This document shows, in pieces, positions 45,716 through 58,474 of a stretch of 64,000 nucleotides of DNA. The DNA is from Xinfangfangia pollutisoli (GTDB lineage Bacteria > Pseudomonadota > Alphaproteobacteria > Rhodobacterales > Rhodobacteraceae). Positions within the stretch are counted from its first letter, which is position 1. Each line of letters starts with the position of its first letter. The stretch spans positions 1 to 64,000 of the forward strand of contig NZ_JAICBZ010000008.1 of NCBI RefSeq assembly GCF_020179405.1, read 5' to 3'. The translations under genes were made by a program, and so were the position numbers. The notes beneath the pieces were generated by a model, which saw only the letters and a program-made list of their open reading frames with translations, made no database searches and was not told where the DNA came from.

Positions 45716-46497
45716 GGCTGCTGGTCATCGGCAATTCCCATGCCGCCTGCCTGATCGAGGCCTGGCGCGGCGCCGACGGGGCCCATGGTGCGACCGAGGT
45801 CGATTTCTTCGCCCGCGCCGGCACGGCCCTGGGCGAATTCGCGATCGAGGGCCGCAGGCTTTACGCGCCCACTGCCGAAGGTCGGGCCTTTCAGGCCCAG
45901 CTGGGGCAGAAGGCGGAATTCGATCTGGCCGGTTACGATGCGATCCTGGTCGTTGGCCATGAGCTGAGCGGCTTTCGGCTGGTGCGCATCCTGAACCGCA
46001 ATCACGTTCTGGGCTGGCCCTATCGCAACCGGCTGGACATTCCGGTGATCACCGAGCCCTGCCTGCGCGACGCGCTGGACGATTCGCTGGAAGACATCAC
46101 CGCGACGCGCCTTCTGCGCCAGATCGCGCCCGCGCTGTCGGCCGACCGGCAAAGGCTGATCGCGCTGCCGCAGCCCTATCCGTCGCAGATCATCCTGCAG
46201 GGCAAGGCCAAGTCGGTGGGTTTCGTGCGGCTGTGCCGGGCGCAGGTCGGCGCGCAGTGCCGGGCCCTGTTCGAAACGGTGGCGCAGGCGCATCTGGCCG
46301 GCATCGGCGCGGCGTTTCTTCCTCAACCCGACGAGACGGTGGTGGAAGGCCTGCTGACCGGGCAGGACTATACGCTGGGGGCGCGGCGTCTGTCGGATCT
46401 CAGCCAGACCCAGCCGCCGCAGGACGAATTGCATGCCAATGCCCGCTATGGCGCATTGATCTGGGCGCAGGTTCTAGCCGAGCTGGGCGCGGCCTAA
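45712..46497 (+). CDS. SGNH/GDSL-like hydrolase-fold protein, partner of the GSCFA protein
   Basis: A 261-aa protein whose start, MRLLVIGNSHAACLIEAW, carries a G-N-S-H motif resembling the catalytic block I (GDS) of SGNH hydrolases, and whose segment ILVVGHELSG could be a second block. A terminal histidine lies in DELHANARYG, matching block V (D-x-x-H). Acyl-esterase or acyltransferase activity is plausible but not proven. It starts inside the GSCFA stop codon, so the two are co-translated. The 3' end overlaps the DeoR gene's 3' end by 4 bp. Confidence 0.7.
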   Translation: MRLLVIGNSHAACLIEAWRGADGAHGATEVDFFARAGTALGEFAIEGRRLYAPTAEGRAFQAQLGQKAEFDLAGYDAILVVGHELSGFRLVRILNRNHVLGWPYRNRLDIPVITEPCLRDALDDSLEDITATRLLRQIAPALSADRQRLIALPQPYPSQIILQGKAKSVGFVRLCRAQVGAQCRALFETVAQAHLAGIGAAFLPQPDETVVEGLLTGQDYTLGARRLSDLSQTQPPQDELHANARYGALIWAQVLAELGAA

Positions 46498-47291
46498 GCC
46501 TTTAGCGCCGATCGCTCTTCCGGCAGCAGCAGGCCCGCGCCATTGCGGCGCAGCGCCGCGGCCAACTCGGGCCCGGGTTCGCGATCGGTGACCAGCGACA
46601 GGTCGCTGTGCCAGCCGGTCAGCAGCACCAGCGCGCGCTTTTCGAACTTGCTGTGATCGGCCAGCACATAGGACCGCCCCGCGCTGGCCAGCATGGCGGA
46701 ATACACCTCGCCCACGCCCAGCATCGCTTCGCTGATCCCGTCGCGGTTCACCCCCGAGGCGCCGATCAGCACGACCGGCGCGCGATAGCGTTCGACCGCG
46801 CGGATGGTTTCGGGGCCGCAGACCATGCGCTCTTGCGGCTCGAAACTGCCGGGCAGCAGCACGATCTCGATCAGCGGATTCGACGAAAGCTCTAGCGCGA
46901 TCGGATAGGTGGGGGTGATCACCGTGATGCGGCGGGTGATCTCGCGCAGGGCGCGGGCGAATTGCAGCATCGTCGCGCCGCCGCCCAGCAGCAGCGCCTC
47001 TTCCCCCGCCACCTCGTCCAGCGCCCGGCGCGCGATGGCCTGCCGCTCGGCCACGTTCAGGTTGATGCGGTCATTCAGCAGCGGCTCGAAGCGGTTCTTC
47101 GCCACCACCGCGCCGCCATAGGTGCGGCTCAGCCGGCCCGCCTGATCCAGTTCGGCCAGATCCCGGCGGATCGTCTCGGTCGAGACGTCCAGCTGTTCGG
47201 CAAGCTGGTTCACCCGCAGCGCCGGGTTGCCCTCCAGCGCGCCGAGGATGCTGTCCTGGCGCTGCTCCTTGCGGGATTTCATCGGTTTCAC
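46494..47291 (-). CDS. DeoR/GlpR family transcriptional regulator of the BMC locus
   Basis: About 265 aa: an N-terminal DeoR helix-turn-helix (RVNQLAEQLDVSTETIRRDLAELDQAGRLSRTYGGA) and a C-terminal DeoRC sugar-phosphate-isomerase-like sensor domain. GTG at 47291 has GGAAGG 8 bases upstream; ATG 47282 is an alternative. It is divergent from the microcompartment genes, and an imperfect 11-bp inverted repeat lies between them, so it is the likely local repressor. DeoR regulators usually sense phosphorylated intermediates; here a phosphorylated amino alcohol could be the signal (inference). Confidence 0.88.
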   Translation of the reverse strand: MKPMKSRKEQRQDSILGALEGNPALRVNQLAEQLDVSTETIRRDLAELDQAGRLSRTYGGAVVAKNRFEPLLNDRINLNVAERQAIARRALDEVAGEEALLLGGGATMLQFARALREITRRITVITPTYPIALELSSNPLIEIVLLPGSFEPQERMVCGPETIRAVERYRAPVVLIGASGVNRDGISEAMLGVGEVYSAMLASAGRSYVLADHSKFEKRALVLLTGWHSDLSLVTDREPGPELAAALRRNGAGLLLPEERSALKA

Positions 47292-47381
47292 TGGCAACAC
47301 CTTCCGATCTGACGACCCGTATTTGTGTGGAGTCCTGCATCATTGCAACCCGGATGACAAAGTTCAAACGCAAGAAATGAC

Positions 47382-47411
47382 CATCTGCCAACATTTATTT
47401 GTTGCCAGATG
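47382..47411. promoter_or_regulatory. Inverted repeat in the DeoR/BMC divergent promoter
   Basis: CATCTGCCAAC (47382-47392) and GTTGCCAGATG (47401-47411) form an 11-bp inverted repeat with one mismatch around an AT-only spacer (ATTTATTT). Flanking copies of ATGACAA occur at about 47354 and 47421. The AT-rich segment contrasts with the surrounding sequence and is a good candidate operator/promoter for the DeoR regulator. Confidence 0.55.
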
Positions 47412-47451
47412 CAGAATCAGATGACAATCTCCGGTCAAACGGAGGTGCGGC

Positions 47452-48732
47452 GTGTTCAACTACGGATACTTCAGCTTCGAGTCGAAGGCCGAGCTTCTTG
47501 CGAAGTCGATCGAATACTGGAACCCGGGCAAGACGAAGTTCTGGCAGGATGCCGGCATCGACATGGTGATCGACCGGCGCGAGGGATATTACCTTTACGA
47601 CATGTCCGGCCGCCGGCTGATCGACCTGCATCTCAATGGCGGGACTTACAATTTCGGCCATCGCAACGCGGAACTGGTGGCCACGCTGAAATCCGCGCTC
47701 GACTATTTCGACATGGGCAACCACTGGTTCCCCTCGGTCGCCCGTGCCGCCTTTTCCGAGAAGCTGGTGAAGACCGCCGCGCATATGCAATACGCCATCT
47801 TCGGCGCCGGCGGGGCCGAGGCTGTGGAAATCGCGCTGAAGACTGCCCGATATACCACAAAACGCCGCAAGATCGTGTCGATCATCAAGGGCTATCACGG
47901 CCATTCCGGCCTGTCGGTCGCGACCGGCGACGATCGGTTCTCGAAGATCTTCCTGGCCGACAAGCCCGAAGAGTTCATTCAGGTGCCGTTCAACGACATC
48001 GACGCGCTGGACCGCGCGCTTCGCGGCCGCGACGTGGCCTGTTTCATCATCGAGACCATCCCCGCCACCTATGGCTTTCCGCTGCCCGATGACGGCTATC
48101 TGCAGGCCTGTCAGGATCTTTGCCGCCGCTACGGCACGCTTTACATCGCCGACGAGGTGCAGACCGGCCTGATGCGCTGCGGCACGATGTGGGGCTGGCA
48201 AAGCTACGGGCTGGAGCCGGACATGTTCGTGACCGGCAAGGGGCTGGGCGGCGGCATCTATCCGATCTCGGCCTGTGTGGTGACCGAGAAATGCGGCGGC
48301 TGGCTGCATGAAGACGGGGCCGCGCATATTTCGACCTCGGGCGGGTCGGAACTGGGCTGCATCGTCGGCCATCAGGTGATCGACATCCTGCAACGCCCCG
48401 AAGTCATTGCGAATGTGCATTCGGTTGCCGATTTCTTCCGCCGCGCCCTGACGCAGATGATGGCGGCCCACAGCGACATTTTCGTAGGCATCCGCCAGCG
48501 CGGCGTGATCCTGGGTCTGGAATATGACCACCCCGAAGGCGCGGTGGCGGTGTCGCGCGCGCTGTATGAACACGGGGTCTGGGCGATCTTCTCGTCGCTG
48601 GACAAGCGGGTGCTGCAGTTCAAGCCGGGCGTGCTGCTGGATGTGGCGACCTGCCAGGAGATCATCGACCGGATGGAGGCCGCGATGCCGCGTGCCCGTG
48701 CTTTGCTGCGCGACATGCGCCGCGCGGCCTGA
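47452..48732 (+). CDS. Class III PLP enzyme, probable amino-alcohol-phosphate phospho-lyase
   Basis: A 426-aa fold type I PLP enzyme of the class III aminotransferase family. The Schiff-base lysine is Lys263 in VTGKGLGGGIYP; IADEVQTGLMR and GAGGAEAVEIALKTARYTT are family motifs. In this family some members are ammonia-releasing phospho-lyases acting on ethanolamine phosphate or 1-amino-2-propanol phosphate. Given the neighbouring kinase and aldehyde dehydrogenase, a phospho-lyase producing an aldehyde inside the microcompartment is more likely than a transaminase. GTG start with GGAGG 7 bases ahead. First gene of the BMC operon. Confidence 0.82.
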   Translation: MFNYGYFSFESKAELLAKSIEYWNPGKTKFWQDAGIDMVIDRREGYYLYDMSGRRLIDLHLNGGTYNFGHRNAELVATLKSALDYFDMGNHWFPSVARAAFSEKLVKTAAHMQYAIFGAGGAEAVEIALKTARYTTKRRKIVSIIKGYHGHSGLSVATGDDRFSKIFLADKPEEFIQVPFNDIDALDRALRGRDVACFIIETIPATYGFPLPDDGYLQACQDLCRRYGTLYIADEVQTGLMRCGTMWGWQSYGLEPDMFVTGKGLGGGIYPISACVVTEKCGGWLHEDGAAHISTSGGSELGCIVGHQVIDILQRPEVIANVHSVADFFRRALTQMMAAHSDIFVGIRQRGVILGLEYDHPEGAVAVSRALYEHGVWAIFSSLDKRVLQFKPGVLLDVATCQEIIDRMEAAMPRARALLRDMRRAA

Positions 48733-48744
48733 GGGGGAAAGCCG

Positions 48745-50301
48745 ATGCCGATGCAGCTTCACCAGGACGCGCCGCGCCTGCAGGTTCCAGACCGGGCCGA
48801 AGAGACGGCGAAGATGAAGATCGACCGCGCCACCTGGGCGGGGCAGGCCTTTGCCCGATATGACCGGGCGGCGGTGATGCGGATCGCGCGCGCCGTGGCC
48901 GAAGCCGGGCATGCCGCGGCCACGCAATTCGCCGAGGCGGCGGTGGCGGAAACCGGCATGGGCGTGGTGGCCGACAAGGTGCTGAAGAACCAGCTTTCGG
49001 CGCATCCGCTTGTCGATTTCTACGAAAACCTCGATCTGGTCAGCCCGAAGGTCGATGCCGAGCGCCGGATGATCGAACTGCCGCGTCCGGCCGGCGTGGT
49101 GCTGGCGCTGACGCCGGCGACCAACCCGGTCTCGACCCTGTATTACAAGACGATCCTGGCGATCCTGTCGCGCAATGCGATCCTGTTCAGCCCGCATCCG
49201 ATGGCCAGACGCTGCTGCAACGCGGCCGCGGCCCGGCTGGCGGCGGCGGCCGAGGCGGCGGGCGCGCCCTCGGGCCTGATCCAGTGCATCGAAGAGCCCT
49301 CGGTGCCACTGGTGCAGGCGCTGATGGGGTCGGCCAAGGTGCAGGTGATCCTGGCGACGGGCGGCGGGCCGATGGTGCGGGCGGCCTATTCCTCGGGCAA
49401 TCCGGCCATCGGCGTGGGCCCCGGCAATGCGCCGGTCTATGTCGATCCGGGCACCGACCAGACGGTCGCGGCGCGGCGCATCATCGACAGCAAGGCCTTC
49501 GACAATTCGGTCCTGTGCACCAATGAAAGCGTGCTGATCTCGCAAGAGCGGGATCGCAGCCGGCTGGAACGCGCGCTGCGGGCCGGGGGCGCCCATATCT
49601 GCTCCGAGGCCGACGTTGCCAAACTGCGCGACTGGCTGTTCCCCGGCGGGCATCTGAACACGGCCGCGGTCGGCAAATCGGCGGTCTGGATCGCGGGCCA
49701 GGCCGGGCTGCGCGTGGTGGGCACGACGCGGGTGCTGGTGGCGCCGGTGGCGCTGGTGGGCATTGACGAGCCGCTGACCCGGGAAAAGCTGTGCCCGGTG
49801 CTGGGCTGGGCGCTGGTCAGCAGCGCCGCCCATGCCGCCAGCATGGCGCAGATGATCCTGCGGATGACCGGCGCGGGCCATTCCGCCGCGATCCATACCG
49901 ACGATCCGCAGCTGGCGCTGGATTTTGCAAGCGCGCTGTCGGTCTATCGGGTGGTGGTCAATGCGCCCTGTTCGCAGGGGGCCGCCGGGTTCGCCACCCA
50001 TCTGGCGCCGTCCTTCATGATCGGCACCGGCTATTTCGGCCGGTCCTCGGTGGGCGAGAATATCGGGCCGCAGCATCTGGTTCACTGGACCCGGCTGGCC
50101 TGGAATTCCGACCCCTCGGTCAGGCCCGGCGATCTGGACGGGCTGCGGGCGCCCTTCGCGGGGCCCGAGGCCGCGCCCGCAGTCCCGCTGCCCTTCAGCG
50201 CGCCGGCCAGCCGGCCCGTGGGCGAGGGCGGGGTCGATCGCGACCTGCTGCGCGAGCTTATTCTTCAGGAACTCCGTGATCTGACCAGGGGCAAGTCGTG
50301 A
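48745..50301 (+). CDS. BMC-associated CoA-acylating aldehyde dehydrogenase (PduP/EutE type)
   Basis: A 518-aa aldehyde dehydrogenase converting an aldehyde, NAD+ and CoA to acyl-CoA. The catalytic Cys258 lies in KAFDNSVLCTNE, and the nucleotide region has LATGGGPMVRAAYSSGNPAIGVGPGNAPVYVD. After about residue 465 comes a Pro/Ala linker, then the amphipathic tail DRDLLRELILQELRDLTRGK, which has the features of an encapsulation peptide for targeting into the shell. Most PduP enzymes carry this peptide at the N-terminus; C-terminal placement is seen in other BMC types. The stop overlaps the BMC-T start by 4 bp. Confidence 0.9.
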   Translation: MPMQLHQDAPRLQVPDRAEETAKMKIDRATWAGQAFARYDRAAVMRIARAVAEAGHAAATQFAEAAVAETGMGVVADKVLKNQLSAHPLVDFYENLDLVSPKVDAERRMIELPRPAGVVLALTPATNPVSTLYYKTILAILSRNAILFSPHPMARRCCNAAAARLAAAAEAAGAPSGLIQCIEEPSVPLVQALMGSAKVQVILATGGGPMVRAAYSSGNPAIGVGPGNAPVYVDPGTDQTVAARRIIDSKAFDNSVLCTNESVLISQERDRSRLERALRAGGAHICSEADVAKLRDWLFPGGHLNTAAVGKSAVWIAGQAGLRVVGTTRVLVAPVALVGIDEPLTREKLCPVLGWALVSSAAHAASMAQMILRMTGAGHSAAIHTDDPQLALDFASALSVYRVVVNAPCSQGAAGFATHLAPSFMIGTGYFGRSSVGENIGPQHLVHWTRLAWNSDPSVRPGDLDGLRAPFAGPEAAPAVPLPFSAPASRPVGEGGVDRDLLRELILQELRDLTRGKS

Positions 50302-50927
50302 CCGATCTCCGCGCCTTCATCTTCATCGACCAGCTGCAGCCGCAGACCCTGGCCTATACCTCGACCTGGATGCGCGGAACGCTGCCGCGCGCGCGGATGG
50401 CGGCGCAGATCATCGAGATCGCGCCGGGGCTGGATGTCGAGGCGCTGACCGATACGGTGCTGAAAAGCGCCGAGGTGCGGGCGGGGTTTCTGGTGGTTGA
50501 ACGCCAGTTCGGCACGCTGCAGTTCCATGCCCGCTCGACCGCCGAGGTGCAGGCCGGGGCGGCGGCGGCGCTGACGGCCATGGGCAAGCGCCGCGAAGAT
50601 GCCGAAAAGCCGAAGATCATGGCCTCGAAGATCGTGACGCGGGTTGATGACCAGCATGCCTTCCTGATGAACCGCAACAAGACCGGCTCGATGGTGCTGG
50701 CGGGGGAAAGTGTCTACCTGCTGGAATGCCAGCCCGCGGCCTATGCCATCCTGGCCTGCAACGAGGCCGAGAAAGAGGCGGACATCAAGGTCATCGACAT
50801 GCGGATGATCGGGGCGAATGGCCGGCTGTATCTGGCCGGGACCGAAGCCGATGTCAGGAATGCCCGCGACGCGGCCGAGCGGGCGCTGCGCGAGGCGGGG
50901 GCGGTGGATGCGAGGGCGGGCGGATGA
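50298..50927 (+). CDS. BMC-T tandem-domain shell protein 1
   Basis: A 209-aa protein with two BMC domains (about residues 1-100 and 105-205). First-domain features are DVEALTDTVLKSAEVRAGFLVVERQFGTLQFHA; second-domain features are MVLAGESVYLLECQPAAYAILACNEAEKEADIKVIDMRMIGANGRLYLAG. Tandem BMC proteins form pseudohexameric trimers, often with gated central pores that pass larger substrates or cofactors. It closely resembles the second BMC-T at 52007 in its start (LR-x-F/Y-x-x-I-D/E-x-LQPQ). Overlaps both neighbours (ATGA). Confidence 0.9.
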   Translation: MTDLRAFIFIDQLQPQTLAYTSTWMRGTLPRARMAAQIIEIAPGLDVEALTDTVLKSAEVRAGFLVVERQFGTLQFHARSTAEVQAGAAAALTAMGKRREDAEKPKIMASKIVTRVDDQHAFLMNRNKTGSMVLAGESVYLLECQPAAYAILACNEAEKEADIKVIDMRMIGANGRLYLAGTEADVRNARDAAERALREAGAVDARAGG

Positions 50928-51403
50928 GCGATCTGCGCGCCCTGATCCGCGAACTGCTGTCGGAAGAGATCGCCAGCCTGCGCGCCGAAATCCTGGGCGG
51001 GGCGGCGGTCGCGGCCGAGCCTGTCCAGGTGTCGACCGAGGCGCAGCTGACGGAATTCGCCCTGACCATCGCGCGCCGCGCGCAGGCGCCGGGCTTTCTG
51101 GCCGGGCTGGAAGCGGGGCGGATCCGCTTTGCGCCGCAGGGCATGGCCGCCATGCCGGGTCCCGCCCCGGTCGCCGCCGCCGTGCCCGCCCCTGCCCCCG
51201 CCGGGGCGCCGGTGGCGCGGCTGGTCACCACCGTTCCGGCGGGCATTCCCGAATTGCGCAAATCCCTGGTGACCGAGCGCGACATTGCCGCGATCGGCAC
51301 CGACCAGACGCGGCTGCGGATCACCAAACAGGCGCGGCTGACACCCCTGGCGGGCGACGAGGCCCGCCGCCGCGGCATCAGGATCGAAAGGACATTGGCA
51401 TGA
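50924..51403 (+). CDS. BMC-locus accessory protein with N-terminal amphipathic helix and Pro/Ala linker
   Basis: A 160-aa protein not assigned to a named family. Residues 1-27 form an amphipathic helix (LRALIRELLSEEIASLRAEI) like an encapsulation peptide; residues about 75-95 are an Ala/Pro linker; the C-terminal part ends ITKQARLTPLAGDEARRRGIRI, a pattern shared with several BMC accessory proteins such as PduM. Its place between BMC-T and BMC-P genes equals that of an uncharacterised gene in the mycobacterial RMM locus (from memory). It may connect cargo to the shell. Start and stop both overlap neighbours. Confidence 0.6.
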   Translation: MSDLRALIRELLSEEIASLRAEILGGAAVAAEPVQVSTEAQLTEFALTIARRAQAPGFLAGLEAGRIRFAPQGMAAMPGPAPVAAAVPAPAPAGAPVARLVTTVPAGIPELRKSLVTERDIAAIGTDQTRLRITKQARLTPLAGDEARRRGIRIERTLA

Positions 51404-51669
51404 TACGGGCGCGCGTCAGCGGCAGGCTTTGGTCCACCCGCCATATCGGCACGCTTCCCACCGGGGCGCTTCTGGAGGTGGAAACCGAGACCGGCGCGAA
51501 ACTGATCGCCTTCGATCCGCTCGGCTGCGCCGAGGGCGAGGCGGTGCTGATCACCCAGGGCTCGGTCGCAGCTGCCTGGTTCACCGAACGCACGGCGCCG
51601 ATTGACGCGCTGATCATCGGTTCCATCGACGACGCATCTGCCGGGAAGCCGGCCGCGAAACGCAAGTAA
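51400..51669 (+). CDS. BMC-P pentameric vertex protein (EutN/CcmL type)
   Basis: An 89-aa EutN/CcmL/PduN-family protein that caps the shell vertices as a pentamer. Family features: an N-terminal RARVSGRLWSTRHIGTLPTGALLEVE strand, AFDPLGCAEGEAVLITQGSVAAAWF (typical D-x-x-G-A-G-x-G-x-x-V-L region with S-A-A/V), and DALIIGSIDD near the C-terminus. ATG overlaps the upstream stop. Its presence indicates that closed polyhedral shells can form. Confidence 0.92.
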   Translation: MIRARVSGRLWSTRHIGTLPTGALLEVETETGAKLIAFDPLGCAEGEAVLITQGSVAAAWFTERTAPIDALIIGSIDDASAGKPAAKRK

Positions 51670-51681
51670 GGAGGTTTTCAA

Positions 51682-51963
51682 ATGGCTAATCTTGCAATCG
51701 GAATGATCGAAACCAAGGGCTATGTCCCCGCGCTGGCGGCGGCGGATGCCATGGTGAAGGCGGCAAATGTCGAGATCGTCGCCCGCAACGAAGTGGGCGG
51801 CGGGCTGGTCTCGGTCGTGGTGCGCGGCGATGTGGGGGCGGTGAAGGCCGCCACCGAAGCCGGCGCCGAAGCCGCGGCCCAGATCGGCGATGTCACCGCC
51901 GTGCATGTGATTCCGCGCCCGCATGCCGATCTGGCAAAGCATTTCGACGCGCTGAAGGCCTGA
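51682..51963 (+). CDS. BMC-H hexameric shell protein (PduA/EutM type)
   Basis: A 93-aa single-domain BMC protein. It has the canonical start [31 protein letters not shown] and the pore-loop region [29 protein letters not shown]. Canonical PduA has a GSG pore lining where this has GGG, which could alter pore size or polarity. It has its own good ribosome site (GGAGG). Main facet component, expected to be the most abundant shell protein. Confidence 0.95.
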
Positions 51964-52006
51964 GCCGGCACCGCCGGTTCCCGCATGCAGGACAAGGATC
52001 AAGGGC

Positions 52007-52630
52007 ATGACAGAGCTTCGCGTCTATCTTCCCATCGAGGATCTGCAGCCTCAGTTCGCGGCCTATCTGTCCTCGCCCACCCGGGCGAGGGGATATCCGC
52101 CCTTCCGGGGCCAGCATTCGCTGATCATCGAGGTGGCCCCCGCCTTGGCGATCCACCGGGTCACCGATCTGGCGCTGAAGGCCGCGCCCGAGATGGAGCC
52201 GGGGATCCTGTACACCGAACGCCAGTTCGGCCTGCTGGAGCTGCATTCCGACCGGATGGCGGATCTGACCGCCGCCGGCCAGGCGATCCTGGCCGGGATC
52301 GGCGCGGCGCCGGCCGATCAGATGCGCCCGCAGATCCTGTATCACGACATCATCGAGGATCTGTCGGATCAGCATGCGATCATCCTCAACCGCGCGCGCG
52401 ATGCCTCGATCCTGGTGCCGGGCGTTGCGCTGCTGATCTATGAAATGGCGCCGGCGCTTTTCGCCTGCGTCGCGGCCAATGAGGCCGAGAAGGCCGCGCC
52501 CAATGCCGTGATCAACGATGTGCAGATGATGGGCGCGACCGGCCGGCTGTTCATGTCGGGCACCCCCGCCGAAATGCGGATCGCGCGCGACACGATCACC
52601 GCGAAACTGGAGGCGATCACCGGACGATAG
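52007..52630 (+). CDS. BMC-T tandem-domain shell protein 2
   Basis: A 207-aa tandem BMC protein, clearly paralogous to the one at 50298: ELRVYLPIEDLQPQFAAYLSS at the start, RVTDLALKAAPEMEPGILYTERQFGLLELHS in domain 1, and LVPGVALLIYEMAPALFACVAANEAEKAAPNAVINDVQMMGATGRLFMSG in domain 2. Two non-identical BMC-T proteins suggest separate pores for different metabolites. A GGGGCC/GGCCCC hairpin lies just after the stop (52636-52651), before the transporter genes. Confidence 0.9.
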   Translation: MTELRVYLPIEDLQPQFAAYLSSPTRARGYPPFRGQHSLIIEVAPALAIHRVTDLALKAAPEMEPGILYTERQFGLLELHSDRMADLTAAGQAILAGIGAAPADQMRPQILYHDIIEDLSDQHAIILNRARDASILVPGVALLIYEMAPALFACVAANEAEKAAPNAVINDVQMMGATGRLFMSGTPAEMRIARDTITAKLEAITGR

Positions 52631-52711
52631 ACGACGGGGCCGCAGGGCCCCCTTCACGCCCGAGAGGTGGATCAACCATCCGAGAGGCAAAACCAACAAG
52701 GGAGAAAGACG

Positions 52712-53842
52712 ATGATCACGAGACGTCAGTTCTCGCTGGGCGCGGCCGGTCTGGCCGGTCTGTCGGCGTTTTCGATGCCGGGCCGGGCGCTTGCCGAGCG
52801 CAGCAATCAGCTGAATATCCTGTGCTGGGAGGGCTACAATTCCGACACGGTGCTGAACCCCTATCGCGCGGCCCATCCCGGGGCGACGATCCGGGCCGAA
52901 AGCGGCACCTCGGACCCCGAGATGATCAACCGGCTGCGCGCGGGCGAGATCGGCACCTGGGATCTGATCAATGTGAACCAGCCCTGGGCGCGCGGAGAGC
53001 TGATCCGCGATGCCCTGATCCGGCCCCTGAACAAAGAGCGCTTCCTGCCCTGGTTCGACAAGATGACGCCGGAATTCGCCAAGCCCTATGCGCTGGCCTT
53101 CGCCGACAATGGCGATCTGCTGGGCATGCCGCAGCGCTATGGGCCGTTCTCGTTCGTGGTGAACACCGACAGGATCAGCCAGGATAGCGCCGAAGAGCAG
53201 GGCTGGAACCTGTTCCTCGATCCGGCGATGAAGGGCCGCTACGGGCTGCTGACCTATGACAACTGGAACGTGATCCATCTGTGTCTTGCGGCCGGGCTGG
53301 ACCCGTTCAAGCCGGTCGAGGGCGCCGATGCCGACCGCTTCGCCGAAACCTGCCGGCAGATCGTGGCCGGCGCGCGGCTGATGACCGACGATCTGGTGGC
53401 GATGAACACCGCGCTGATCAATGGCGAGATCGACGCCTATTTCACCGGCGGCACCTATACCGCCTCGCCCGCGCGCTATGACGGCGCGACCTTCGTGCGC
53501 GCGATCACGCCGCGGTCGGGGCCGGTCGGCGGCAAGGGCGGCGTGGTCTGGGTGGAACTGACCTCGGCGGTGAACAACCCCGATCCTTCCGGCCTGGCCG
53601 AGGATTTTCTGGAATTCGTGCAGAAGCCCGAGATCTGCAAGGCGGTGGCCTTCTCGGAAGGCACCTACAACCCGATCGCGCAGATGGGCAATCCCGAGGT
53701 GATGGCGCTGTTCGACGCCGAGATGCTGGAGGCGATCCAGTTCGATTCGCTGGAAGCCGAGCTGTCGCGCTGTCTGGAATTCGATGTCGTGCCTTCCTAC
53801 GACGCCCTGCTTGCGGCCTATGTCGCCGCGCGGCGCGGCTAG
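52712..53842 (+). CDS. Spermidine/putrescine-type ABC transporter substrate-binding protein
   Basis: A 376-aa periplasmic binding protein of the PotD family (SBP_bac_8). The N-terminus TRRQFSLGAAGLAGLSAFSM is a twin-arginine-type signal, cleaved after about residue 30 (ALA-ER). The mature start LNILCWEGYNS is characteristic of PotD/PotF. Family members bind small amines such as polyamines; in this operon an amino alcohol (1-amino-2-propanol, ethanolamine) or aminoacetone is a reasonable ligand. ATG 52712 follows GGGAGAAAG. It is followed by a hairpin and the rest of the transporter. Confidence 0.88.
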   Translation: MITRRQFSLGAAGLAGLSAFSMPGRALAERSNQLNILCWEGYNSDTVLNPYRAAHPGATIRAESGTSDPEMINRLRAGEIGTWDLINVNQPWARGELIRDALIRPLNKERFLPWFDKMTPEFAKPYALAFADNGDLLGMPQRYGPFSFVVNTDRISQDSAEEQGWNLFLDPAMKGRYGLLTYDNWNVIHLCLAAGLDPFKPVEGADADRFAETCRQIVAGARLMTDDLVAMNTALINGEIDAYFTGGTYTASPARYDGATFVRAITPRSGPVGGKGGVVWVELTSAVNNPDPSGLAEDFLEFVQKPEICKAVAFSEGTYNPIAQMGNPEVMALFDAEMLEAIQFDSLEAELSRCLEFDVVPSYDALLAAYVAARRG

Positions 53843-53863
53843 GGCCTTTGGCTGTGACAGGCT

Positions 53864-53897
53864 GCCGGGCGCCCTGCGGCCCGGCGGCCCCCTTTTC
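53864..53897 (+). other. Stem-loop after the PotD-like gene
   Basis: GCCGGGC (53864-53870) pairs with GCCCGGC (53879-53885) around an 8-nt loop, followed by CCCCCTTTTCCCC. It could attenuate or stabilise the transcript between binding-protein and ATPase genes. Similar hairpins follow the other two binding-protein genes in the window. Confidence 0.5.
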
Positions 53898-53918
53898 CCC
53901 TTTTGCCTGGAATGGACG

Positions 53919-55007
53919 ATGGTTGCCCAACCCTTCGTGCGGATCGAGAATGTCACCAAGCGTTTCGGCCGCTTCACCGCCCTGGACCGGATCAGCCTGG
54001 ATATTGCCGAGGGCGAATTCCTGACCATCGTCGGCCCCTCGGGCAGCGGCAAATCCACGCTGATCCGGCTGCTGGTCGGGATTGACGACGTCACCGAGGG
54101 CACGATCCGCCTGAACGGCACCCGCATCGACACCATGCCCGCCAACAAGCGGCCCACCTGCATGGTGTTCCAGTCGCTGGCGCTGTTTCCGCATATGAGC
54201 GTCGGGCGGAACATCGAATTTCCCCAGAAGCTGAAGAAGATCGCGCCCGCTGCGCGCAAGGCCCGCGCGCTGGAACTGCTGCGGCTGCTGCGGCTGCCCG
54301 AAGACTATTACGGCAAGATGATCGGCCAGCTGTCGGGCGGCGAGCGGCAGCGGGTGGCGCTGGCCCGCGCGCTGGCCTTCGATCCGCAGATCATCGTCTT
54401 CGATGAACCCCTGTCGGCGCTGGATTACCGGTTGCGCAAGACGTTGGAGAAAGAGCTGAAGGATCTGCATGCCCGCACCGGCAAGACCTTCGTCTACATC
54501 ACCCATTCGCTGGAAGAGGCGATGGTGATGTCGGACCGGATCGCCATCATGAAACGCGGCCGGTTCGAACAGATCGACGTTGCCGAGGCGATCTATTCCC
54601 GCCCGGTCAGCCGCTTCGTCGCCAGCTTCATGGGCGAGGTCAATCTGTTCGAGGCGGCGGAAGAACAGGGCAAGGCGCGCTGGGGCGACGCCGGGATCAG
54701 GGCGCTGTCGGGCGGGCTTGCGCTGCCCGCGGGCTGGCGCGGCGCGCTGATGGTGCGGCCCGAGCTTCTGCGCTTTGTTGCCGAAGGGCAGGGCGCGGAT
54801 TTCACCGTGCAGGGCCGGGTGGTGGCGGAATATGCGCTGGGATCGCGCATCCAATATGCGATCGACACCCTGGCCGGCACGCGGATCACCGTCGAGCGGC
54901 CGTTTGAACAGCGCCTTGCCGCGGGCAGCGACGCGCCGGTCACCCTGGGCTGGGATCGCGACGCGGTCCACCCGATCGCCGAGGAGCCCCGCCATGCAAC
55001 GGCTTGA
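53919..55007 (+). CDS. Spermidine/putrescine-type ABC transporter ATP-binding protein
   Basis: A 362-aa ABC ATPase of the PotA/PotG type. Walker A is GPSGSGKST (about residues 40-48), the signature is LSGGERQRVALARAL, and Walker B is IIVFDEPLSALD. The C-terminal TOBE-like domain (about 250-355) contains LMVRPELLRF. It energises the two permeases that follow; start ATG 53919 has a weak ribosome site and may depend on the upstream hairpin context. The 3' end overlaps the first permease gene by 14 bp. Confidence 0.92.
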   Translation: MVAQPFVRIENVTKRFGRFTALDRISLDIAEGEFLTIVGPSGSGKSTLIRLLVGIDDVTEGTIRLNGTRIDTMPANKRPTCMVFQSLALFPHMSVGRNIEFPQKLKKIAPAARKARALELLRLLRLPEDYYGKMIGQLSGGERQRVALARALAFDPQIIVFDEPLSALDYRLRKTLEKELKDLHARTGKTFVYITHSLEEAMVMSDRIAIMKRGRFEQIDVAEAIYSRPVSRFVASFMGEVNLFEAAEEQGKARWGDAGIRALSGGLALPAGWRGALMVRPELLRFVAEGQGADFTVQGRVVAEYALGSRIQYAIDTLAGTRITVERPFEQRLAAGSDAPVTLGWDRDAVHPIAEEPRHATA

Positions 55008-55848
55008 AAGCCGCCTGGGCTTCCTGTCCGGGCTGCCGATCCTGATCCTGCTGCTTCTGGCCTTCATCATGCCGCTGTTCGTGGTGGCAGGGTTCGCCAT
55101 CATGCCGCAGAAAGTGTTCGAGCTGACCCATCTGCCGGATTTCTCGTCCTTCGCGGTGATCTGGGAACAGGGCTATTACCGCTCGCTTCTGCGCTCGCTG
55201 GGGCTGGCCTTCCTGACCACGGTCATCCTGTTCATCGTCTGCTGGCCGCTGGCTTACGGCATGGCTAAGGTCTTCGGCCGCTTCACCATTGTCATCACGC
55301 TTGCCGTGGTGCTGATCCTGTTCGTGTCGGAAAACATCCGCCTGTTCGGCTGGAGCCTGTCGCTGATGAAAGGCGGGCTGATCGAGGGCTATCTGCGGTC
55401 CTGGACCGGGCTCAGCTTCGAGACGCCGCTGTATGACTGGCCGGTGATCGTCTTCGGCATGGCCTATGTCTATTTCCCCTTCATGCTGTTTCCGCTGGCG
55501 CAGGGCATCAGCCTGGTGCCCGACGACGCCCGGCTTGCCGCCTCGGACCTGGGCGCAAGCCCCGCGCGGATCCTGTTCGAAATCGAAATGCCGCTGGCCG
55601 CCCCCGGCATCATGGTGGGCAGCCTTCTGACCTTCGTGCTGTCGGCGGGGGCGGTGGCCGAGGCAAAGCTTCTGGGCGGGCGGTCGGTCGTGGTGCTGAC
55701 CGACGATGTCGAAAGCGCCTTCACCTTCGCGCAGAACTGGCCGCTCGGGTCGGCGCTGTCGCTGATGCTGATCGGGATCGTGGCCCTTCTGGTTCTGGTG
55801 CCGGTCAGCCGGGTGAATCTGGACGCGATCATGGGGCGGAAAAGATGA
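54994..55848 (+). CDS. Spermidine/putrescine-type ABC transporter permease 1 (PotB/PotH type)
   Basis: A 284-aa membrane protein with six predicted helices. The permease EAA-like coupling motif is ARLAASDLGASPARILFEIEMPLAAPGI. Start ATG lies inside the ATPase gene, and the stop overlaps the next start by 4 bp, so translation is coupled. It pairs with the second permease to form the import channel. Confidence 0.92.
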   Translation: MQRLESRLGFLSGLPILILLLLAFIMPLFVVAGFAIMPQKVFELTHLPDFSSFAVIWEQGYYRSLLRSLGLAFLTTVILFIVCWPLAYGMAKVFGRFTIVITLAVVLILFVSENIRLFGWSLSLMKGGLIEGYLRSWTGLSFETPLYDWPVIVFGMAYVYFPFMLFPLAQGISLVPDDARLAASDLGASPARILFEIEMPLAAPGIMVGSLLTFVLSAGAVAEAKLLGGRSVVVLTDDVESAFTFAQNWPLGSALSLMLIGIVALLVLVPVSRVNLDAIMGRKR

Positions 55849-56639
55849 GATCGGTTTCCAACACCACCCGCATCGCGCTGTATCTGTACGGGCTGCTGAT
55901 CCTTCTGGTCCTGTATCTGCCGCTGGTGTCGGTCGGCTTCGCCTCGGTGTCGAAGGCGCGCTATCTGAGCTTTCCGGTCAACCGCTATACCAGCGAATGG
56001 ATGGTGCAGGCGGTGACCAGCCCGAATGTGCATGCGCTGGTGCTGACCTCGCTGAAGATCGCGGTTCTGGTCACGCTTCTGTCGATGCTGCTGGGCTTTT
56101 TCGGCGCGCTGGCTTTCGCGCGCTTCCAGTGGAAATACCGCCCGCTGTTCCAGAAGCTGATCCTTCTGCCGATCTTCTTTCCCCAGACGGTGCTGGGGCT
56201 GGCGCTGCTGATCTGGTTCTCGGCGCTGGGGGTTCAGCCCAGCTGGAAGACCGCCGTGATCGCCCATCTGGTCTGGATCGCGCCAATCACCACGCTGATC
56301 ATCGCCATTCGCGCCTATGGTTTCGACCCGGCGCTTGAGGAAGCGGCCCGCGACATGGGCGCCTCGACCCTGACCATCCTGCGCGAGGTGACGCTGCCCC
56401 TCTTGATGCCGGGGGTGATCTCGGCCGGGCTGTTCGCCTTCCTGCTGTCCTGGGGGAATTTCCCGCTGTCGCTGTTCACCTCGGGGCTCGATTCGACTTT
56501 GCCGAAATGGCTCTATGCGCGGATGGTCTCGGGCTACACGCCGCAGATCCCGGCGCTGGGCGTGCTGTCGGTGGCCGGATCGGCGGCGCTGATGCTGATC
56601 GGGATCGGGCTGGTCCGCTGGATGCGCCGACGCGCCTGA
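55845..56639 (+). CDS. Spermidine/putrescine-type ABC transporter permease 2 (PotC/PotI type)
   Basis: A 264-aa membrane protein with six predicted helices and the coupling motif LEEAARDMGASTLTILREVTLPLLMPGV. It completes the binding protein, ATPase and two-permease set, all on one strand within the microcompartment gene run. The SDR gene follows after 37 bp with its own ribosome site. Confidence 0.92.
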   Translation: MRSVSNTTRIALYLYGLLILLVLYLPLVSVGFASVSKARYLSFPVNRYTSEWMVQAVTSPNVHALVLTSLKIAVLVTLLSMLLGFFGALAFARFQWKYRPLFQKLILLPIFFPQTVLGLALLIWFSALGVQPSWKTAVIAHLVWIAPITTLIIAIRAYGFDPALEEAARDMGASTLTILREVTLPLLMPGVISAGLFAFLLSWGNFPLSLFTSGLDSTLPKWLYARMVSGYTPQIPALGVLSVAGSAALMLIGIGLVRWMRRRA

Positions 56640-56676
56640 GACCAAGACAAATCATAAAAATCTGGGAGGAACCAAC

Positions 56677-57456
56677 ATGCTGACATCATTGCAGGGCCGG
56701 AGTGTCATCGTGACCGGCGGGTCGAAGGGGATCGGGCGCGGCATCGCGCGGGTCTTTGCGCGGGCGGGGGTGAAACTGACCCTCGTCGGGCGCGACCAGG
56801 CGGCGCTGGCGGCCGCAGTGGCCGAGATGACCGCGGCCGGCGCCATCGCGCGCAGCGCCGTCTGCGATGTCAGCGATTACGATCAGGTCCGCCGCATGGT
56901 CGACGCCGCGGCCGAGGTGCAGGGTGGGCTGGATGTCGTCTGCGCCAATGCCGGGTCCTTCCCGCAGGTGAAGATGGTCGACATGACGCCCGAGGACTGG
57001 GACCAGATGATGGCGAACAACCTGCGGTCGACCTTCCTTTGCGTCAAAGCCGCGATCCCGCATTTCGAACGCGCGGGCAAGGGCCGCGTGATCGTGACCT
57101 CGTCGATCACCGGCCCGGTGACCGGCTATCCCGGCTGGTCGCATTACGGCGCCTCTAAGGCCGGGCAGCTGGGCTTCATCAAGACCGCCGCGATGGAACT
57201 GTCGCGCTACAACACCACGATCAACGCGGTGATGCCCGGCAATATCGTGACCGAAGGGCTGGAAGGGCTGGGCGAGGACTATCTGAAGACCATGGCCGCC
57301 TCGATCCCGCTGAAGCGGCTGGGCGCGGTCGAGGATATCGGCCATGCGGCGCTGTTCTTCGCCTCGGATGAGGCGGCCTATATCACCGGGCAGCAGATCA
57401 TCGTCGATGGTGGCCAGATCCTGCCGGAATCCCTGGAAGCCATCGCGTCGATCTGA
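56677..57456 (+). CDS. SDR family oxidoreductase, candidate 1-amino-2-propanol dehydrogenase
   Basis: A 259-aa classical short-chain dehydrogenase. The cofactor motif TGGSKGIG is at residues 13-20, NAG at 91-93, and the catalytic residues are Asn114, Ser143, Tyr157 and Lys161 (SHYGASKAG). In the mycobacterial aminoacetone microcompartment an SDR interconverts aminoacetone and (S)-1-amino-2-propanol; the location with the same partner genes makes this the best guess. GGGAGGA lies upstream of the ATG. The coenzyme preference cannot be settled by eye. Confidence 0.82.
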   Translation: MLTSLQGRSVIVTGGSKGIGRGIARVFARAGVKLTLVGRDQAALAAAVAEMTAAGAIARSAVCDVSDYDQVRRMVDAAAEVQGGLDVVCANAGSFPQVKMVDMTPEDWDQMMANNLRSTFLCVKAAIPHFERAGKGRVIVTSSITGPVTGYPGWSHYGASKAGQLGFIKTAAMELSRYNTTINAVMPGNIVTEGLEGLGEDYLKTMAASIPLKRLGAVEDIGHAALFFASDEAAYITGQQIIVDGGQILPESLEAIASI

Positions 57457-57469
57457 AGGGGACTGAGGG

Positions 57470-58474
57470 ATGGCCGAACAGTCCATGCCGCTTCAGGCGG
57501 TTTTGCAGCATCTTGACCGGCTGGCGCAGGATGCGCTGCCGCTTTGGCCGGTGCCCCGGGGGGCGACGGCGCGGCTGATCAATGTGTCCGAGAACGCGAC
57601 CTATCTGGTCGAGGCGGGGGCCTATCGGTCGATCCTGCGCATCCACCGCCCCGCCTATCACACAAGGCGGGGCATCGGCCAGGAACTGGCCTGGGCGCAG
57701 GCGCTGGCCTCCAGCGGGCTGGTGAACACCCCGCCGCCGATTGCCGGGCGCAATGGCGATCTGGTGCAAGAGGGCCATGTGCCCGGCCTGCCCGAGCCGC
57801 GGTTCATGGTGATGTTCCGCTTTGCCGAAGGCCGGCAGCCGGATGAGAACGACGATCTGGTCGCGCCCTTTCAGCGGCTGGGCGCCATCGCCGCGCGCAC
57901 CCATCTGCATTCGATGGCCTGGCAGCGCCCCGAACCGCTGGAGCGGCTGCGCTGGGATCATGACGCGGTCTTCGGGCCGCAGGCCAATTGGGGCGACTGG
58001 CGGGCGGCGCCGAATGTCACGCCGCCGATCCGCGCGGTTCTGGAACGGGTCGAGGCGACGATCCGCCGCCGGCTTGACGCCTTCGGCCAGGATCCCGGGC
58101 GCTACGGTCTGATCCATGCCGACATGCGGCTGGCCAATCTGCTGATCCAGGGCGAAGAGACGACGCTGATCGACTTCGACGATTGCGGTCAGGGCTGGTT
58201 TCTTTACGACTTCGCCACCGGCATCAGCTTCATGGAGGATCACCCGCAGGTGCCCGCCCTGCGCGCGGCCTGGGTGCGGGGCTATCGCTCGGTCCGCGCG
58301 CTGTCCGAGGCCGAAGAACGCGAGATCGACACCTTCATCATGCTGCGCCGCCTGGCCTTGCTGGCCTGGATCGGCAGCCATATCGAGGCGCCCGAACCCC
58401 AGGCCATGGCCCCGGATTTCGCCCGGGTCTCGGCCGAACTGGGCCAGGCTTACCTGGCCGAATTCGCCGTCTGA
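57470..58474 (+). CDS. Aminoglycoside phosphotransferase-family kinase, candidate 1-amino-2-propanol kinase
   Basis: A 334-aa APH/choline-kinase fold protein. The catalytic loop is HADMRLAN (His216, Asp218, Asn223) and the metal-binding motif is IDFDD (Asp235, Asp237). In the mycobacterial aminoacetone microcompartment a kinase of this family phosphorylates (S)-1-amino-2-propanol, producing the substrate of the PLP phospho-lyase. An N-terminal amphipathic helix (LQAVLQHLDRLAQDAL) might assist encapsulation. It starts 13 bp after the SDR gene and is the last gene of the run. Confidence 0.85.
   Translation: MAEQSMPLQAVLQHLDRLAQDALPLWPVPRGATARLINVSENATYLVEAGAYRSILRIHRPAYHTRRGIGQELAWAQALASSGLVNTPPPIAGRNGDLVQEGHVPGLPEPRFMVMFRFAEGRQPDENDDLVAPFQRLGAIAARTHLHSMAWQRPEPLERLRWDHDAVFGPQANWGDWRAAPNVTPPIRAVLERVEATIRRRLDAFGQDPGRYGLIHADMRLANLLIQGEETTLIDFDDCGQGWFLYDFATGISFMEDHPQVPALRAAWVRGYRSVRALSEAEEREIDTFIMLRRLALLAWIGSHIEAPEPQAMAPDFARVSAELGQAYLAEFAV

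Follow-up and report, generated by a model that had tools for sequence, protein, structure and literature searches.

A window of 64,000 nucleotides from contig NZ_JAICBZ010000008.1 of Xinfangfangia pollutisoli, whose positions supply all coordinates given here, carries a DeoR-family gene and, divergent from it, 13 co-directional genes which, on the sequence, are a real locus for a metabolosome of the RMM/AAUM type. An earlier note on this DNA had described 12 co-directional genes, but the count is 13 once a PduM-like protein of 159 residues (50924-51403) and a four-gene ATP-binding cassette (ABC) importer (52712-56639), both omitted from it, are included. Open frames were found where that note had placed them, and family scans agree with the functions it had named: frames and family matches bear out the minus-strand DeoR protein, a class-III pyridoxal phosphate (PLP) enzyme, an aldehyde dehydrogenase (AldDH) of the coenzyme A (CoA)-acylating type, the bacterial microcompartment (BMC) proteins, namely two BMC-T, one BMC-P and one BMC-H, a short-chain dehydrogenase/reductase (SDR) and an APH kinase. 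The arrangement is not due to chance, because the block is found again in the family, where 10/394 genomes have it (the window genome included), and at other loci picked up by a genome scan. G+C content is 66.3% in the locus and 67.1% in the remainder of the window, and a whole-genome search returned two BMC-domain matches, both within the locus.

The four shell genes lie on the plus strand, and in solved-structure searches the best natural solved relative of each of their products is a Mycolicibacterium smegmatis RMM shell protein. BMC-T 1 (50298-50927), a double-layer, CcmP-like protein, is the counterpart of MSM0275 (5l39, 2e-79; CcmP model, 9e-60), the BMC-P vertex protein (51400-51669) that of MSM0273 (PF03319; 5l37, 1e-26), BMC-H (51682-51963) that of MSM0272 (PF00936; 5l38, 4e-35, ranked second to the tandem fusion chain 6ner) and the likewise double-layer BMC-T 2 (52007-52630) that of MSM0271 (5suh, 3e-83). 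The gene order is collinear with descending MSM numbers (MSM0275-0273-0272-0271), and the sole number skipped, 0274, coincides with the slot of the PduM-like gene. Plasmid pRHL2 of Rhodococcus jostii has the same run of AldDH, BMC-T, small protein, BMC-P, BMC-H and BMC-T. The kinship extends to the enzymes at the far end of the operon. The SDR (56677-57456, plus strand; 6ci8/6ci9, 3e-94), a putative 1-amino-2-propanol dehydrogenase or aminoacetone reductase with an NADP(H) signature, is identical at 150 of 257 positions (58%) to 6ci8, which we take to be the RMM 1-amino-2-propanol dehydrogenase, and the APH-fold protein (57470-58474, plus strand; 6ef6, 7e-77), a putative amino-alcohol kinase, is identical at 135 of 313 positions (43%) to 6ef6, presumably the RMM amino-alcohol kinase. 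All four shell proteins, the SDR and the kinase thus have RMM chains as their best solved relatives, which supports the RMM/AAUM kinship that the earlier note had proposed.

The AdhE/EutE-type AldDH (48745-50301, plus strand; PRK13805, 1e-122; EutH_ACDH, 4e-112) retains Cys258 in 89/89 orthologs and, like its orthologs, ends in an amphipathic-looking C-terminal helix behind a linker, resembling an encapsulation peptide. In R. jostii the AldDH and the PLP enzyme are identical over their final 31 residues, and their genes over 97 bases; the latter therefore carries an AldDH-type targeting tail, probably acquired through local duplication. On the same plasmid the stretch from BMC-T through the small protein and BMC-P to BMC-H is duplicated in tandem (L036:10560-17490), the copies being annotated with identical protein accessions, and it seems that this duplication fused the AldDH tail onto the PLP gene. 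The PduM-like protein (plus strand) also has an encapsulation-peptide-like helix, at its N-terminus and similar to the AldDH tail, followed by a flexible middle (pLDDT about 58-65 in a model of pLDDT 85 and pTM 0.45 overall) and a C-terminal TPLA..D motif. The C-termini of 7/11 orthologs match PF15953 (best E 3.8e-5), the window protein itself falling under the curated cut-off (E 0.0074; 16.7 bits against 27), and a fold search gave no solved-structure match at E <=0.001. In the Pdu microcompartment the PduM gene stands next to that of the vertex protein. The window gene likewise adjoins the BMC-P gene and its product has the weak C-terminal PF15953 match; it differs from PduM in remaining under the family cut-off and in having no significant solved-structure match. 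Salmonella PduM helps to bind the enzyme core to the shell, according to the accessible text of PMC9132943, and by analogy the window protein is proposed to be a shell-cargo linker.

The remaining co-directional genes, all on the plus strand, encode the PLP enzyme (47452-48732; PF00202, 5e-67), a proposed amino-alcohol-phosphate phospho-lyase with glutamine at position 389, and the importer. The latter comprises a solute-binding protein (52712-53842; weak PF01547 and PF13343 matches under the cut-off, and 53% identity to a PotD/PotF-annotated homolog on plasmid pAt of Agrobacterium fabrum), a PotA-like ATPase (53919-55007; PRK09452, 4e-86, under the equivalog cut-off), a PotB-like permease whose start codon is inferred (54994-55848; PRK09497, 7e-30, under cut-off) and a PotC-like permease (55845-56639; PRK09500, 1e-33, under cut-off). 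Sequence comparison thus shows the shell proteins of an RMM, an acylating AldDH whose tail resembles an encapsulation peptide, and an SDR and a kinase close to those of RMM.

With a probability of roughly two in three, this is an RMM/AAUM-type metabolosome that processes a small amino alcohol by a kinase/phospho-lyase route. The Pot-type importer would take up a small amine, for which aminoacetone or 1-amino-2-propanol are the best guesses, and the SDR, at the shell or outside it, would use NADP(H) to interconvert the ketone and the alcohol. Phosphorylation of the amino alcohol's hydroxyl group would fall to the APH kinase, and the PLP enzyme, within the shell, would eliminate phosphate and ammonia to yield propionaldehyde. 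The AldDH would convert this aldehyde into propionyl-CoA for export to the methylmalonyl-CoA route, and two genes of the methylmalonyl-CoA-mutase family are present in the genome. The PduM-like protein would tether cargo to the shell, and DeoR would act as the regulator, perhaps sensing a phosphorylated intermediate.

The kinase almost always accompanies the shell. Among 68 related loci with at least 18 kb of DNA (long loci), an APH kinase was present in 66, counting alignments of at least 200 residues, a threshold that excludes a match of 151 residues at 26% in L050; with three genomes represented twice (L024/L072, L028/L076, L029/L097) counted once, the figure is 63/65. Across all 96 loci of any length, many of which are ended by contig boundaries, 82 had the kinase. 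Two of the kinase queries were derived from loci with an amidase gene, so the hits in L044, L094 and L073 cannot count as independent. None of 13 own-genome class-III control loci had such a kinase, although only 5/13 of these are at least 18 kb, so their lengths differ from those of the long loci. Kinase residues H216, D218, N223, D235 and D237 are kept in 73/73 orthologs. The SDR is less constant, reaching at least 50% identity in 61/68 long loci and lacking in 7/68 (62/68 had it before this floor was applied), and the ABC binding protein occurs in 58/68. That the kinase is nearly always present while SDR and transporters vary suggests that the loci have a phospho-amino alcohol intermediate in common. 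Outside BMC loci, PLP enzymes of the window type lie beside an APH kinase in Pseudomonas and beside a PF01663 phosphodiesterase in Phyllobacterium and Mesorhizobium, and kinases of the window kind on other plasmids adjoin class-III genes. A plasmid operon seen twice (L118:10733-13290 and L119:10733-13269) combines a window-type PLP enzyme with DeoR, a phosphodiesterase of PF01663 and an ABC importer of the peptide type; it is perhaps a route for imported phospho-amino-alcohol diesters.

Matching BMC-T proteins (E <=1e-10) were found in 20/394 family genomes, ten of which, the window genome included, carry the locus. A sample of the class gave window-type PLP enzymes (E <=1e-75) in 8/385 genomes; besides the window genome there are seven, all with the enzyme in a BMC locus. 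A scan of named genomes confirmed 359 relatives of BMC-T 1, of which the best 80 were analysed, a sample that leans towards close kin; these are mostly alpha- and gammaproteobacteria by title, with Comamonas, Sulfurimonas and a Neomarinimicrobiota metagenome-assembled genome (MAG) among them. Two arrangements recur: in one, DeoR is divergent and the PLP enzyme more similar (68-92% identity); in the other, ABC, SDR and kinase genes lie upstream and the PLP enzyme is at about 55-62%. Five loci (L027, L042, L044, L094, L116) are without the SDR; they carry instead an amidase, an ABC importer of the Peripla_BP_4/BPD_transp_2 type and a different kinase that is only weakly PF01636-like. L073 has an amino-acid permease and a kinase. 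In the Vibrio S9_S30 locus (L116) a PLP enzyme with lysine at position 389 (56% identity to the pAt enzyme) lies beside the BMC block, with no window-type PLP enzyme in its 20.6 kb. Near-identical BMC loci occur in MAGs of different phyla (L096 and L099, each with an integrase on the contig) and in the gammaproteobacterial L098; this may reflect recent transfer or mis-binning. One family genome (G215, locus L032) has a shell block and AldDH at about 40-70% identity and none of the window's PLP enzyme, SDR or kinase, and is another BMC type.

Such variety at the front of the operon bears on the choice of substrate. The chemistry may be as outlined and the native substrate ethanolamine or another amino alcohol, with aminoacetone/1-amino-2-propanol being the mycobacterial case only. 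The five amidase loci with their own importer and kinase, the permease and kinase of L073, and a plasmid kinase that adjoins an ethanolamine permease in Chimaeribacter are all consistent with this. However, the window SDR, at 58% identity to 6ci8, would be superfluous for ethanolamine, and an SDR at 50% identity or more accompanies the great majority of long loci. A different native substrate is a possible, less favoured alternative to aminoacetone or 1-amino-2-propanol.

The identity of the PLP enzyme is central to the kinase/phospho-lyase route. In a tree of 55 class-III enzymes (36 window-type rows, four Lys-type rows and 15 others), the window-type rows form a clade with support of 100/99 that unites the window enzyme with its orthologs in BMC loci and with sequences from Phyllobacterium, Mesorhizobium, Pseudomonas and Burkholderia. 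A second clade, with support of 100/100, holds the Lys-type phospho-lyases, namely 5g4i, one other enzyme of the window genome, and those of the R. jostii RMM locus and of A. fabrum pAt. The window enzyme is therefore, by the tree, in a clade of its own, distinct from the RMM enzyme of R. jostii, which is a Lys-type phospho-lyase bearing an encapsulation tail; orthology with the R. jostii enzyme was rejected on these separate, well-supported clades. The earlier note had taken the enzyme for a phospho-lyase, and it falls neither with the characterised ones nor with the R. jostii enzyme. At position 389, the site of the transaminase arginine (present in Escherichia coli PatA, GabT and ArgD), glutamine is found in 36/36 window-type enzymes and lysine in 4/4 of the phospho-lyase clade. 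Position 391 is basic in 36/36 window-type and 4/4 Lys-type enzymes and in 0/15 of the other rows. Lys-type phospho-lyases take the place of the window-type enzyme in the RMM locus of R. jostii and adjoin the BMC block in Vibrio S9_S30, which favours the kinase/phospho-lyase route.

Several observations weigh against that route. The join between the window clade and the phospho-lyase clade is long-branched, and its support of 84/37 is weak. Loss of the arginine is not diagnostic, as 10/13 other own-genome class-III enzymes lack it, one of them being Lys-type. The window-type enzyme retains a transaminase-like Glu201, where Lys-type enzymes mostly have aspartate, and its model (pLDDT 86, pTM 0.88) is nearest in fold to the transaminases YgjG, PigE and ArgD; in the sequence comparison 4ppm (4e-47) is a much better match than the ethanolamine-phosphate phospho-lyase 6tor (1e-29). 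The window PLP enzyme has no evident encapsulation tail. Among the gene contexts, the long loci without a clear kinase are L050 and L114, the class-III partner of the Tsukamurella kinase is Arg-type, and the own-genome Lys-type phospho-lyase, itself one of the controls, has no kinase in 16.8 kb, which weakens a simple kinase-phospho-lyase rule. L114, from the Olavius Gamma 3 endosymbiont, has a PLP frame that looks broken, with the match in two stretches, and yielded no kinase; this locus may be decaying. A kinase-coupled PLP step, as the earlier note had proposed, is supported by the long loci and the controls, but is not proven.

The same enzyme might instead be a transaminase, converting 1-amino-2-propanol to lactaldehyde or aminoacetone to methylglyoxal, from which the AldDH would produce an acyl-CoA. 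Both schemes have been published (Axen 2014; Ravcheev 2019; accessible text in each case), transaminases are nearest by fold and sequence, and Glu201 is retained. However, the glutamate-type arginine is replaced by glutamine throughout the window clade, the near-universal kinase has no clear job in the scheme, and enzymes of the phospho-lyase lineage occupy the same slot in R. jostii and a position beside the block in Vibrio. The earlier note had named clustering with true transaminases as a result that would count against its proposal; the enzyme is nearest to transaminases by fold and yet is without their carboxylate-binding arginine. A transaminase role is, on balance, improbable.

Lysine or arginine in the glycine motif of an SDR, together with arginine after the second strand, denotes a preference for NADP(H). 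Both features (Lys or Arg at 17 and Arg39) are present in 70/70 SDR orthologs. A closed redox loop in which the SDR re-oxidises the NADH of the AldDH inside the shell, suggested in the earlier note and also as scenario one in the accessible text of Ravcheev 2019, gains from the presence of both enzymes in one operon, but was rejected as very unlikely because of these residues and the SDR-less loci (7/68 at 50% identity), the Rhodococcus enzyme also being NADP+-dependent by the title of Kataoka 2006 and no encapsulation peptide having been noticed on the SDR.

Whole-genome searches with working controls found neither PduL (PF06130) nor EutB (PF06751), and on this ground EutBC as the source of the aldehyde and a CoA loop based on PduL were both rejected for this genome. 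With no PduL found and an SDR that does not look NADH-linked, coenzymes would have to cross the shell or be exchanged at it. No diol dehydratase was found among the locus proteins in family scans; a genome-wide search was also blank, but says nothing since its family control was silent. Family scans of the locus proteins, with no genome-wide search made, likewise found no alcohol dehydrogenase or glycyl-radical enzyme.

The regulator gene (46494-47300, minus strand; PF08220 and PF00455) has counterparts in many relatives, where a divergent DeoR adjoins the PLP gene. Between these two genes in the window, and overlapping neither, is an imperfect inverted repeat (47382-47411; 11/12 pairs, no strand assigned) that is a candidate DeoR operator; 1/100 mononucleotide shuffles gave an equal or better score, and the best repeats of relatives mostly differ. 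No operator common to 34 intergenic regions was found, the repeat being confined to the window apart from partial resemblances in L043 and L044.

A broader and tentative proposal, which we hold at somewhat below even odds, is that the shell and AldDH constitute a general, B12-free organelle for phosphorylated amino alcohols. The window enzymes would represent a third, separately evolved, Gln-type lineage of class-III phospho-lyases, with Lys-type phospho-lyases performing the same step in the actinobacterial and Vibrio versions. Exchangeable front ends would feed it: SDR, kinase and polyamine-type ABC importer; permease and kinase; or amidase, another APH kinase and a sugar-type ABC importer, for N-acyl amino alcohols. 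The function of RMM-type compartments is still partly guesswork, with three pathway proposals published, and the comparative evidence names a new enzyme clade. If the proposal is true, aerobic marine and soil proteobacteria own a vitamin-B12-independent compartment for amino alcohols, perhaps including N-acylated ones.

Several known systems offer points of comparison. Class-III phospho-lyases (5g4i, 6tor) share with the window enzyme the fold class, the basic residue at 391 and kinase partners, but the window enzyme is in a separate clade, with Gln rather than Lys at 389 and Glu rather than, mostly, Asp at 201; from glutamate-type class-III transaminases its clade differs in lacking the conserved carboxylate-binding arginine. 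The pAt locus of A. fabrum C58 has homologous ABC (47-59%), SDR (59%), kinase (43%) and DeoR (40%) genes, but no annotated shell genes in 16.8 kb and a class-III enzyme of the Lys-type lineage. RMM1, as described in the accessible text of Axen 2014, contains an SDR, a phosphotransferase, a permease, GntR and an aminotransferase, and RMM2 is RMM1-like with diol dehydratase genes added. The window locus resembles RMM1/AAUM (Aut) of Mycobacterium and Rhodococcus in its one-to-one and collinear shell set of two double-layer BMC-T, one BMC-H and one BMC-P, and in the SDR, APH kinase, acylating AldDH with an encapsulation-peptide-like tail, class-III enzyme and lack of a phosphotransacylase. It differs in having a Pot-type ABC importer and DeoR where Axen 2014 and Ravcheev 2019 have an amino-acid permease and GntR, and a class-III enzyme whose lineage is not that of the R. 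jostii enzyme used for the comparison.

The relation to RMM2 depends on the definition. Diol dehydratase genes define RMM2 of Axen 2014; family scans found none among the proteins of the window locus. Sutter 2021 mentions two RMM2 phylum outliers, from Epsilonproteobacteria and Candidatus Marinimicrobia, with a phage integrase adjoining the BMC locus in both. These resemble the Sulfurimonas and Neomarinimicrobiota MAG loci, which have the window's gene set and a PF00589 integrase gene on the same contig; RMM2 of Sutter 2021 therefore probably includes the window locus type, which, from this description of the outliers, has probably been catalogued already under that name. The cluster has been reported in Actinobacteria, Firmicutes and Proteobacteria, with lactaldehyde routes proposed (Ravcheev 2019), and conversion of aminoacetone to propionyl-CoA, as well as RMM2 in Paracoccus yeei, is cited by Asija 2021, both as far as the accessible texts go. 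Literature searches met no pathway for an RMM variant of the window type and, judged by titles, nothing on point for an amidase or phospho-lyase version of the microcompartment. Within the reach of those searches, what is new is the Gln-type clade of PLP enzymes, the interchange between it and Lys-type phospho-lyases, and a front end built on an amidase. The window locus belongs to a known kind of metabolosome in a proteobacterial form, whose central enzyme is different and whose feeder genes can be exchanged.

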